NCBI GenBank assembly: GCA_026702615.1
Contig: JAPPBY010000028.1
Coordinates: 1 to 64,000, forward strand
DNA from: Chloroflexota bacterium
GTDB taxonomy: Bacteria > Chloroflexota > Dehalococcoidia > Tepidiformales > Tepidiformaceae
DNA length: 64,000 nt
Reading direction: 5' to 3'
The position numbers and the translations under genes are program-made. Below are positions 27,819 through 39,436 of this stretch, one piece after another. The notes below the pieces were generated by a model. The model saw only the letters and a program-made list of their open reading frames with translations, was not told the DNA's origin and did not search any database. How positions within the stretch are numbered: the first letter of the stretch is position 1; the number at the start of each line of letters is the position of its first letter.

Positions 27819-29099
27819 CTAGCGGTCCGGGCCCTCCAGGTAGTCGTCGATGACCTTGTGCATGTGGCGGATGCGGCGCTCGCGGTAGTTGATCAGCAAC
27901 CCCTTGAACGAACGCGAGTTCATCCCCTTCTGCACGCGCGGCAGGTTGTACGAGTCCTGGTCGAGCCCCAGCCCGAGCGATATCTCGCCGTGCTTGTGCG
28001 TCGTGTGCACCGGGCGCGGCGGCGGGTCCGAGCCCTCCGGGATGCGCACGTAGTTCTGCAGGTCGTAGTACATCTTGTTCGGGTCGGTCGCGTGCGGCCG
28101 CTGCCGGAACAACATCACGCCCGAGTGGTGCGTGTTCAGCGTGATGTTCGGGAAGATGTAGTAGTGGTAGTCGTCGCTGAGCTGGTCGTCGTTCAGCTCT
28201 GACAGGTCGATTCCGTGGTCGGCGGCGTGCTTCTTCACCTGAGCCTGGAGGGCGGGCCGCACGTCCGCGGGACCGCCTTCGAACGTCTCCGGGTCGATGC
28301 CCGCGGCTTGCAGCATCTCCTTCAGCGCGCGCGTCAGCTCCTCCTGGTTCGGGTAGCGTGGGCTCAGAAGCCCGAACGGCACCAGGTAGCGGTTGTGCCG
28401 TTCGTACAGGTCGATCTGCACGTGGATGTCATCGATGTTCTCGAGGATCTGCGGGTGGATGCCCTGCACGTGATACACCTCGTTGAAGGCGTCCACCGAG
28501 GTCTTCCAGTTGCAGTCCCACTCGATCGTGACGTCCTGGACGAAGTACTGCTTCTCGAAGTGGTAGGGGTTGAGGTGGTCGGGGATCTCTCCGAGGAACT
28601 CCATCAGGGGCTCGGCGTCGGGGTTCATGTTGAACCAGACCCAGCCGCCCCAGGTGTCGCAGGGCACCTCGATCAGCGCCGTCTCCTGGGGCACGCCCTG
28701 AGTGAAGGTGTCCTCGTCGGGGACGAACTTCTTCGAGCCGTCGAGGTTGAACTCGAAGAAGTGGTAGGCGCACTGGAACGACTCCGCATGCCCCATGCCG
28801 GCGTTGCGTATCTGGTTCCCGCGGTGGGGGCAGACGTTGTAGAAGGCGCGCACCTTCTCCTCCGCCTCCCGCACGATCAGGAAGGACTCGGGACCCAGCT
28901 CCGTCGTGAAGTAGTCCCCCACGTTGGGGATGTCCTGCGTGCGACCGGCGATGTTCCACACCTTGGTCCACATGCGCTCCCACTCGCGGTCCATGAACTC
29001 CTTCGAGATGTAGCGCTCCTTGGGGATGAGGTCGGTTCCGAGGACTGGCTCGGACGCCTTCGTGGTCGGCGTTTGCTGGGACACGGATTCGAGGACCAT
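27819..29099 (-). CDS. Rieske aromatic ring-hydroxylating oxygenase, alpha subunit (copy 2)
   Basis: A 426-residue paralogue of the 18573-19850 protein. It has CPHRGN and CAYHFFEF as Rieske ligands and NWKTSVDAFNEVYHVQGIHP at the iron site. Long blocks match the other copy (GRTQDIPNVGDYFTTELGPES region, NKMYYDLQNYVRIPEG region), while the middle substrate region differs. SDR genes lie on both sides, suggesting oxidation of the hydroxylated product. Confidence 0.92.
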   Translation of the reverse strand: MVLESVSQQTPTTKASEPVLGTDLIPKERYISKEFMDREWERMWTKVWNIAGRTQDIPNVGDYFTTELGPESFLIVREAEEKVRAFYNVCPHRGNQIRNAGMGHAESFQCAYHFFEFNLDGSKKFVPDEDTFTQGVPQETALIEVPCDTWGGWVWFNMNPDAEPLMEFLGEIPDHLNPYHFEKQYFVQDVTIEWDCNWKTSVDAFNEVYHVQGIHPQILENIDDIHVQIDLYERHNRYLVPFGLLSPRYPNQEELTRALKEMLQAAGIDPETFEGGPADVRPALQAQVKKHAADHGIDLSELNDDQLSDDYHYYIFPNITLNTHHSGVMLFRQRPHATDPNKMYYDLQNYVRIPEGSDPPPRPVHTTHKHGEISLGLGLDQDSYNLPRVQKGMNSRSFKGLLINYRERRIRHMHKVIDDYLEGPDR

Positions 29100-36327: not shown

Positions 36328-36734
36328 ACGTCGTCATCATGGGCTGCGGGCGCACCGGGGCCGCCATCGCCGCCAGCCTCGACCGCGACGGCCACTCCGT
36401 CACCGTGCTCGACCTCAACTCCGGCCAATTCCGCCGCCTCCCCGATGGCTTCGGCGGACGCATGGCCGTCGGCAACGGCATGGATGCCGACGTCCTGGAG
36501 CGCGCCGGCGCCCGCGAGGCGGACGCCTTTGTCGCCGTCACCCAGGGTGATAACCGCAACTACTTCGCCAGCCAGCTCGCCCGCGAGATCTTTGGCGTGC
36601 AGCACGTGGTCTGCCGCACGAAGGACCCGGAGCGGGGCGAGATCTTCGGCCACCTCGGCCTCCAGACCTACAGCCCCACCAGCGCGGGGGCGGAGGCGAT
36701 CATCGCCATGCTGCCCAACCCGGGACCGGCCTGA
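36324..36734 (+). CDS. TrkA-N (RCK N-lobe) protein, single domain
   Basis: A 136-residue protein holding one Rossmann domain of the TrkA type: VVIMGCGRTGAAIA, then acidic VTVLDLN at the end of beta-2, GNGMDADVLERAG and VAVTQGDNRN. The GTG start overlaps the upstream stop by 4 nt. There is no C-terminal TrkA-C domain. It would bind NAD(H) or ATP and gate a K+ channel or Trk/Ktr transporter, which is not encoded nearby. Confidence 0.88.
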   Translation: MNVVIMGCGRTGAAIAASLDRDGHSVTVLDLNSGQFRRLPDGFGGRMAVGNGMDADVLERAGAREADAFVAVTQGDNRNYFASQLAREIFGVQHVVCRTKDPERGEIFGHLGLQTYSPTSAGAEAIIAMLPNPGPA

Positions 36735-36737
36735 GCC

Positions 36738-37412
36738 GTGTACGTCATCATCGCCGGCGGCGGCAAGGTCGGGTACTACCTCGGGCGCGAGCTCCTCGGC
36801 GGTGACCACGAGATGCTCGTCATCGAGCGCAGCGCCTCCCGCGCCGCCGAGATCAACGACCTGCTCGAGGGCACCGTCCAGCAGGGAGACGCATGCGAGG
36901 CGTCTGTGCTCGACGGCGCCGGCATTGCCCGCGCCGACCTCGTCGCGGCCGTCACCGGCGACGACGAGGACAACCTCGTCGTCTGCGAGATCGCGCGCTA
37001 CCGGGGCGTCCCGCGCGTCCTCGCCCGCGTCAACAACCCCACGAACGCGCTCCTCTTCCAGAAGCGCGGCATCGAGACGACGGTCTCCGCCACGGAGGCA
37101 ATCCTCTCCCAGATCGAGCAGGAGCTGCCCGTCACCTCGATGGTCCCCGTGATGCAGCTCCACCAGGGGCTGGAGCTGGTCGAGGTGCGCCTCTCGGAGA
37201 CCTCGCCCGTGGTGGGACGCACGCCACGCGAGGTGTTGCTGCCCCCCGAGTCGCTCATTGCCCTCATCGTCGATTCCGGCGGCGTGCCCCGCGTCCCCGG
37301 CGCCGATACCACCCTCACCGCCGGCGACGCCCTTGTCGTCGTAACCCGCGCCGAGAGCAAGGGGATGCTCCAGGAAGCGCTCATCGGGGGCGCGCATGGG
37401 TTCGACACCTGA
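36738..37412 (+). CDS. TrkA-family potassium uptake regulator (N+C domains)
   Basis: A 224-residue protein, half the length of E. coli TrkA. TrkA-N: YVIIAGGGKVGYYLGREL, LVIERSASRA, VVCEIARYRGVPRVLARVNN region. TrkA-C from about residue 140: LVEVRLSETSPVVGRT and ADTTLTAGDALVVV. It starts with GTG 3 nt after the single-domain protein, so the two are likely made together and may form mixed rings. Confidence 0.9.
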   Translation: MYVIIAGGGKVGYYLGRELLGGDHEMLVIERSASRAAEINDLLEGTVQQGDACEASVLDGAGIARADLVAAVTGDDEDNLVVCEIARYRGVPRVLARVNNPTNALLFQKRGIETTVSATEAILSQIEQELPVTSMVPVMQLHQGLELVEVRLSETSPVVGRTPREVLLPPESLIALIVDSGGVPRVPGADTTLTAGDALVVVTRAESKGMLQEALIGGAHGFDT

Positions 37413-37428
37413 GGCGGGAGGGGCCGGC

Positions 37429-38250
37429 GTGAAGGTCGCCTTCCTTGGCCCGCCGGGCACCTTCGGCGAAGAGGCCGCGCGGCGCTACTTCCCCGACCCC
37501 GATCTGCTCCCCTGCCAGACGCACGGCGCCGTCGCTCGCGCCGTCGAGGCGGGCGAGGCCGAGACTGGCGTCATGGCCATCGAGAACTCGCTCAACGGCT
37601 CCGTGCCCGAAACCCTCGACATCCTCATCCACGAGACCGCCCTCAAAATCCAGGGCGAGGTGCTCGTGCCGGTTGTGCACAACCTGGTCGCCGCCCCGGG
37701 CACGGCCGTCGACGAGATCGAGCTCATCTACTCCCACCCACAGGCACTCGGGCAGTGCCGCGTCTTTCTCGGGCAGCACTGCCCCGAGGCCCAGCGCGCC
37801 GCCGCGCTCTCCACCGCGCAGGCTGTCGAGCTCGCCGTCGCCCAGCCGGGCGCCGCCGCCATCTCCACGGTCCGCGCCGCCGAGATCTACGGGGCCGACG
37901 TTCTCGCCGAGGCCATCCAGGACCAGGACAGCAACGCCACCCGCTTCGTGGTCGTGGGGCGGCACGAGCCTGAGCCCTCGGGCCGGGACCGCACCTCCAT
38001 CGCCTTCGAGTTCGCCGGCGACCGCGCTGGCCTCCTCACCGCCGCCCTCACCGAGTTCTCCAGCCGCGGCATCAACTGCACCAAGATGGAGAGCCGACCC
38101 ACCCGCGCCACCTTCGGCGAGTACATCTTCCTCATCGACTTCGAGGGTCACGAGTTCGACCCCGAGTGCGCCGCCGCCCTCGACGGACTGCGCGGCATGA
38201 CGACCATGCTCAAGGTGTTCGGCAGCTACCCCCGGGCGTTCGATGGCTAG
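37429..38250 (+). CDS. pheA: Prephenate dehydratase
   Basis: A 273-residue enzyme that converts prephenate to phenylpyruvate in phenylalanine synthesis. It starts VKVAFLGPPGTFGEEA and has the catalytic NATRFVVVGR (TRF) motif. A C-terminal ACT domain (IAFEFAGDRAGLLTAALTEF, then KMESRPTR) binds phenylalanine for feedback control. The GTG at 37429 follows GGGAGG; an ATG at 37396 would overlap trkA by 17 nt. No chorismate mutase domain is fused. Its stop overlaps the DUF3179 gene. Confidence 0.93.
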   Translation: MKVAFLGPPGTFGEEAARRYFPDPDLLPCQTHGAVARAVEAGEAETGVMAIENSLNGSVPETLDILIHETALKIQGEVLVPVVHNLVAAPGTAVDEIELIYSHPQALGQCRVFLGQHCPEAQRAAALSTAQAVELAVAQPGAAAISTVRAAEIYGADVLAEAIQDQDSNATRFVVVGRHEPEPSGRDRTSIAFEFAGDRAGLLTAALTEFSSRGINCTKMESRPTRATFGEYIFLIDFEGHEFDPECAAALDGLRGMTTMLKVFGSYPRAFDG

Positions 38251-39436
38251 GGCGCTCGCGGCCGCCGTCGCGACGCTGACCCTCGGGCTGGCGGCCCTCG
38301 CCTGCGGCGGCTCCGACCCGGGGGCGCCCCCCGCCGCGCCCACCGAACCGCCTGCCACCGAAGCCGCCACCGCTACCGCCGCCACGGAACCCCCCGCCAC
38401 CGAGGCTCCCGCCACGCAGCCCGCGGACTCCACGCCCCGCGCGACCGAGGCGGCGGCGCCTGCGGACCCCCGCCAGCCGGGCGACCCCGACCTCGAAATC
38501 GTCACCCTCCTCCCCCCCGACGCCATCCCCGCCGTCGACAACCCCCGCTTCATCACGGCTGAGGAGGCCGACCAGCAGCTCGCTCTGAGCGACCTCGTCA
38601 TCGGCGTCTCCATCGACGGAAAACACCGCGCCTACGGCGCCGCCTTCCTCAGCGCCCACGAGATCGTCAACGACACGCTCGGAGGCCGCGCCATCGCGGT
38701 CACCTGGTGACCGCTCTGCTTTACGGGCATCGTGTATGCCCGCGAAATCGAGGGAGAAACGCTCAGCTTCGGCGTGTCGGGGAAGCTCATCATGAACGCC
38801 CTCGTCATGTTCGACCGCCAGACCGAGACCCTCTGGAGCCAGTTCCTCGGCGAGGCCGTCGAGGGGCCGCTCAAGGGCACGCCCCTTGAGGTGGTGCCCG
38901 CCGTCCTCACCACCTGGGAGAGCTGGCGCCAGCTCCACCCCGATACGCAGGTGCTCGATCAGGGCGGCTTCGTCATGGACGCCTACAACGGCTACTACTT
39001 CAGCCCCCAGGCGGGCGTCATCGGCGAACGCAACGCTGACGATCGCCTCTTCGGCAAGGAGCTCGTCCACGGGGTCGTCATTCCCCAGGGGCGGAAGGCC
39101 TACTCGCATCGCGTCCTCGCCGAGCATCCCGTCGTCAACGACCTCATCGGCAACCAGCCCGTGCTCGTGGCCTGGGACACCGTCGGACGCGCCGCCATCG
39201 CCTACGACCCCACGGTCGACGGTCGCCTCCTCACCTTCGAGGTCCATGAGCCCGACGCCAGCGGCGAGACCCTGCGCGACCTCGAGACCGGCTCCGTCTG
39301 GTCCGTGCTCACGGGCGAGGCGCTCACGGGAGAGCTTGCTGGCTCCCGCCTCGAGGTCCTCAACGGGTTCGCCGTCTTCTGGTTCGCCTGGTCCGACTAC
39401 TTCCCCGACACCGATGTGTTCCAGCCGGAGGGCTAG
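38243..39436 (+). CDS. DUF3179-family lipoprotein, probable selenoprotein (in-frame TGA = Sec)
   Basis: A 397-residue protein if TGA 38708-38710 (codon 156) is read through. The N-terminus is a signal with Cys at LAALAC then a Thr/Pro/Ala linker. The DUF3179 domain starts near residue 90. Just before the TGA the frame reads GGRAIAVTW and just after it PLCFTGIVYAREIEG, then LSFGVSGKL and MFDRQTETLWSQF. In this family the position is normally the first Cys of CPLC, so the protein would carry U-P-L-C, a typical Sec/Cys redox pair. The frame stays open for 241 more codons with family-like sequence. It overlaps pheA by 8 nt. A pseudogene or sequencing error is the alternative. Confidence 0.8.
38724..38742 (+). 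promoter_or_regulatory. Candidate bacterial SECIS hairpin
   Basis: A perfect 7-bp stem CGGGCAT-CGTGT-ATGCCCG lies inside the coding sequence, 13 nt after the in-frame TGA. The loop starts 20 nt after the TGA and has G as its second base. Known bacterial SECIS elements have a small G-containing loop about 16-37 nt downstream of UGA, where SelB binds. Confidence 0.7.

Follow-up and report, generated by a model that had tools for sequence, protein, structure and literature searches.

The window, the 64,000-nt stretch of DNA analysed here, is part of a draft MAG (G000, 2.87 Mb, 95% complete) and carries on its forward strand a DUF3179 gene of 397 codons whose start shares an 8-base overlap with the end of pheA (37396-38250). 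The order pheA, DUF3179 gene, ABC-2 transporter ATPase is kept across the genus, and this conserved neighbourhood gives no clear functional hint. A sequence-only reading had described the frame as open from 38243 to 39436 except for a TGA at the first Cys of a CPLC motif, and both translation and alignment to homologues confirmed this, with the TGA at 38708-38710 the sole internal stop (context AIAVTW-*-PLCFTGIVYAR). The features of the gene, referred to below as Sec-DUF3179, are as follows.

38243..39436, + strand: Sec-DUF3179 CDS, 397 codons, ATG to TAG, with a single internal UGA
38243..38305, + strand: putative signal peptide of a lipoprotein, up to Cys21, read from the sequence
38519..38956, + strand: N-terminal beta domain, copy 1 of a duplication, carrying U-P-L-C (alignment, profile comparison and AlphaFold2 model; predicted Rieske-like fold)
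38708..38710, + strand: UGA, probable selenocysteine (Sec) codon in place of the first CPLC residue (frame translation and homologue alignment)
38717..38719, + strand: partner, putatively resolving, Cys of U-x-x-C, without variation in 33 aligned rows
38724..38742, + strand: SECIS hairpin, stem CGGGCAU/AUGCCCG of 7 bp, loop CGUGU at 38731-38735
38999..39412, + strand: C-terminal beta domain, copy 2 of the duplication, in which the motif position is degenerate and reads WDTVG (profile comparison and AlphaFold2 model; predicted Rieske-like fold)
39434..39436, + strand: TAG, the true stop codon (translation)

With the UGA read as Sec, the protein matched the Pfam DUF3179 profile (PF11376) over positions 2-292 of 292 (E 2.3e-87; 293.5 bits against a curated cut-off of 27) and, because this whole-length match spans the TGA, the frame belongs to the DUF3179 family on both sides of it. 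The UPLC of the window protein follows HEIVNDTLGG, the family-typical motif and flank (HEIVND..GG) thus both being present, and the Cys/Sec column and the second Cys are invariant in the 33-row DUF3179 alignment. The predicted signal peptide, judged by reading the sequence rather than by a signal predictor, ends in GLAALACGG in the window gene and in IAVACGG in orthologues, and Cys21 is followed by a linker rich in Pro, Ala, Thr and Glu, a layout repeated in orthologues L076, L077 and L080-L082. None of the NCBIfam models recognised the window protein, and for this reason automatic annotation is likely to split the gene at the UGA. A search of viral contigs found no relative. A scan of the window for further recoded TGAs returned just two sites, 38708 and 36732. 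The second is an ordinary gene boundary: its TGA (36732-36734) is a normal stop, followed in the same frame by the start of a TrkA-like gene, and this layout mimics recoding in the coding-potential scan.

Exchange of UGA and Cys codons among DUF3179 homologues

DUF3179 was found in eight of the nine genomes of the genus, each with exactly one copy containing a single TGA and two to three copies lacking it. The TGA occupies the identical alignment column in all eight genus orthologues, which come from separate assemblies, and the TGA-less copies in the same genomes encode Cys at that column (CPLC or CTLC). Among 400 Chloroflexota genomes we recovered 12 further TGA copies in six genomes (G395, G302, G260, G035, G320 and G274), again at this column, where the motif reads UPLC, UTLC or UPAC. 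All 20 TGA copies therefore share one column, with TGA nowhere else in the gene, which excludes chance, and all 44 homologues examined that lack the TGA have a Cys codon in its place (38 TGC, 6 TGT). An Anaerolineae MAG carries a Cys homologue with the sequence TWCPLCF and a TGT codon. The TGA/Cys exchange that the sequence-only reading had put forward as a check is thus present. The relatives that carry names are MAGs of Dehalococcoidia/Tepidiformaceae, and a sponge source is suggested by isolate names such as IRC and APA.

In a maximum likelihood tree 12 UPLC copies formed one supported clade (98/95) and three UTLC copies another, whilst two UPAC copies lay on long branches; the supported branches force at least two Sec/Cys changes. 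Within Tepidiformaceae, the family of the window organism, the Sec form is confined to the genus, and among the 400 Chloroflexota genomes the nearest Sec relatives of the genus lie outside its class, a patchy distribution that likely reflects horizontal gain.

Several copies showed features of their own. Some genomes (G260, G302 and G035; L092-L096 and L102) hold two or three different Sec-DUF3179 copies, and in G035 two of these lie next to each other in convergent orientation, with about 40 bases between their domains. The Tepidiformaceae orthologue L082 (5001-5915) has TGA both as its internal, putatively Sec-encoding codon and as its terminal stop, and so offers within one gene a natural comparison for SECIS dependence. 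An in-frame TAG in G267 (L100; G267:C42:24011-24940) was considered as a recoding event and rejected, its position being different and its CPLC intact; this Cys-type copy is decayed or broken, or contains a miscall or assembly error.

SECIS hairpin, constraint around the UGA and selenocysteine machinery

The compact hairpin that had been noted at a SECIS-like distance downstream (38724-38742, CGGGCAU-CGUGU-AUGCCCG) was borne out. Published bSECIS rules call for a 3-9 nt loop, a 4-16 bp stem, a G in the first two loop bases, a distance of 16-37 nt from the UGA and an energy of ≤ -7.5 (PMC13188914), and the window hairpin satisfies them, with a 5-nt loop lying 20 nt after the UGA, 7 bp and about -9.9 kcal/mol when folded alone. 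Its stability in the single window sequence was unremarkable against shuffles (z -0.95), and since single-sequence folding was non-significant we used covariation across homologues. Over 18 distinct Sec sequences, 93.7% of stem cells pair, both sides have changed in four of the seven hairpin pairs, and the covariation score was reached by none of 500 shuffles; sliding the partner by 1-3 columns lost the signal, giving far lower scores, and RNAalifold, unprompted, gave the same stem. The mean number of pairs formed, of seven, was 6.55 in Sec genes versus 3.2 in the 44 Cys homologues (p 2e-9, an optimistic value given that the sequences are related), and by this comparison the hairpin is absent from Cys-type DUF3179 genes. 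In this register G274 and G395b, the TGA copies that diverge most, formed only four and three of the seven pairs; they may form shifted stems instead. An Rfam search of the UGA region gave chance matches only.

Selection on the protein was equal on the two sides of the TGA, with a pN/pS of 0.36 before and 0.36 after it in the eight genus orthologues; this upholds the earlier argument that family-like sequence beyond the TGA speaks against a decayed gene. At codons +1 to +12 synonymous variation was seen in 1 of 11 amino-acid-invariant codons versus 85 of 164 elsewhere (Fisher p 0.009), a stretch picked after a sliding scan in which +169 to +202 was nearly as low (2/11). The low synonymous variation just 3' of the UGA points to constraint at the RNA level, for which covariation is a stronger argument than the synonymous-site scan.

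The genome was also checked for selA, selB, selC and selD, as had been proposed, and all were present, on contigs other than that of the window. SelA scored above cut-off, tRNA-Sec (anticodon UCA) reached 71.1 bits, above the Rfam cut-off, and SelB and SelD reached 298.7 and 347.4 bits respectively. The selD gene contains an in-frame TGA of its own within the motif GCGG-U-ASKAGP (L045 1501-2436; G000:C8:40194-41129), SelD thus being itself a probable selenoprotein, and this TGA is an internal control that the organism recodes UGA. selA was found in 9/9 genomes of the genus and in 14/14 genomes with a TGA-type DUF3179, whilst none of the eight DUF3179 genomes lacking selA had the TGA type, a contrast that is weak alone as selA was present in 70 of the 78 genomes tested.

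Predicted fold of the two DUF3179 halves

Profile comparison shows the two halves of DUF3179 to be homologues (E 2.5e-32), and the CxxC pair is kept only in the first. An AlphaFold2 model, built with Cys replacing Sec, was confident, with a mean pLDDT of 83.6 (86.9 for the N-terminal half alone), and is mostly beta with short helices. The best structural matches of both halves were Rieske domains (VIA Z 8.7 for the C-terminal and 9.8 for the N-terminal half), which filled nearly all the top rows for both halves among the matches listed, thioredoxins not being among those matches; Foldseek against Rieske structures gave probabilities of up to 1.00 at E 0.03-0.2. Comparison of Rieske and DUF3179 profiles with hhalign was non-significant, the window protein had no Pfam Rieske match, a PDB sequence search with the DUF3179 family profile gave no match, and the Rieske ligand set C-x-H...C-x-x-H was absent from the 33-row family alignment, in which only C/U-x-x-C is conserved. 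Given the lack of homology support from profiles and the missing ligand set, we do not claim homology to Rieske proteins and describe the halves as having a predicted 'Rieske-like fold' and not as a 'Rieske protein'. The papers examined that name DUF3179 contained no report of an internal duplication or of a Rieske-like fold.

One rather doubtful scenario is that DUF3179 derives from Rieske domains in tandem, a scaffold from which the iron-sulfur cluster was lost and in which a cluster loop was reused for Cys-x-x-Cys, a former ligand position having become Sec in the present clade; if true, a Rieske-like fold would here bear a Sec redox site or a metal site with Sec as ligand. Separately, 22 matches to Rieske domains were counted across G000, two of them on C18, the contig of the window (19458-19709 and 28707-28958). 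Many of the 22 lie in long open frames, which suggests a rich repertoire of Rieske oxygenases.

Probable recoding of the UGA and relation to known systems

We conclude that the UGA at 38708-38710 is very probably recoded as Sec (probability about 0.93), the selenoprotein proposal made from the sequence being strongly supported by the sel genes, the TGA/Cys exchange, the SECIS hairpin and the equal constraint on both sides. SelB and tRNA-Sec would translate the UGA, directed by the hairpin at 38724-38742, and the product would be an exported, membrane-anchored DUF3179 lipoprotein, export and lipid anchoring being deduced from the signal peptide. Sec would replace the first Cys of the family CxxC and so create a U-P-L-C redox site in the first Rieske-like beta domain, where Sec would attack and Cys would resolve the product as a selenenylsulfide.

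A TGA that arose as a nonsense mutation or as a miscalled TGC or TGT would need only one base to separate it from the Cys codons of the homologues, but the recurrence of the same codon, at this one place in the gene, in eight separately assembled genus orthologues and a further 12 copies and the purifying selection that is equal either side of it refute a pseudogene or sequencing error, leaving a negligible chance for this explanation. Readthrough that does not involve selenium, with Trp inserted at the UGA or a near-cognate tRNA decoding it, draws on nothing beyond the open frame; it is hardly credible when all 44 TGA-less homologues examined have Cys at the aligned codon, when the full Sec machinery occurs along with a covarying SECIS and when the L082 orthologue terminates normally at a TGA. 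SECIS-dependent Sec insertion is often inefficient and varies with selenium supply, and the UGA might thus mainly terminate translation to give a functional product of 155 residues, Sec insertion being minor or regulated. Such a product would stop within the first domain and before the CxxC pair, and the downstream protein is as constrained as the upstream part, making deliberate truncation very improbable.

The recoded protein is most likely a lipoprotein at the cell surface in which Sec and Cys form a redox pair, and thiol/selenol redox chemistry is a reasonably probable function judging from the motif alone. A competing view of the function, which leaves the recoding untouched, is that the U-x-x-C pair binds a metal such as mercury or copper, or holds an iron centre on the Rieske-like scaffold. 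Metal binding is common among CPxC pairs and both model halves resemble Rieske domains, but the Rieske ligand set is missing from the alignment and profile comparison with Rieske sequences is non-significant, so that metal binding is possible but unlikely.

Cys-type DUF3179 proteins (CPLC/CTLC), of which the same genomes hold two to three paralogues, share the domain and length of Sec-DUF3179 but have a Cys codon where the Sec genes have UGA and are without the SECIS hairpin. Rieske-type ferredoxins and NirD resemble each half in predicted fold (VIA Z 8.7 to 9.8), whereas DUF3179 is a tandem duplication without the [2Fe-2S] ligand set or a significant sequence match. The claim of the sequence-only reading that no Sec-containing DUF3179 protein had been described proved wrong: among the selenoprotein families given in reviews is 'DUF3179 domain-containing protein, UxxC/T', credited to Zhang and Gladyshev 2007, in the deltaproteobacterial Olavius algarvensis symbiont (PMC9312934; PMC13188914). 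The selenoprotein status of DUF3179 is therefore already known. What is new are the Chloroflexota members, the SECIS covariation, the patchy distribution and the predicted duplicated Rieske-like fold: a well-supported Chloroflexota Sec clade is added to a selenoprotein family without assigned function, a hairpin with covariation over 18 distinct sequences is supplied for DUF3179, and the predicted fold offers a structural lead. The published proteins (MBW1804167.1, MDJ0986319.1) and those described here belong to the same Pfam family, PF11376, with Sec first in UxxC; the present members differ in their Chloroflexota hosts, where many homologues carry Cys.
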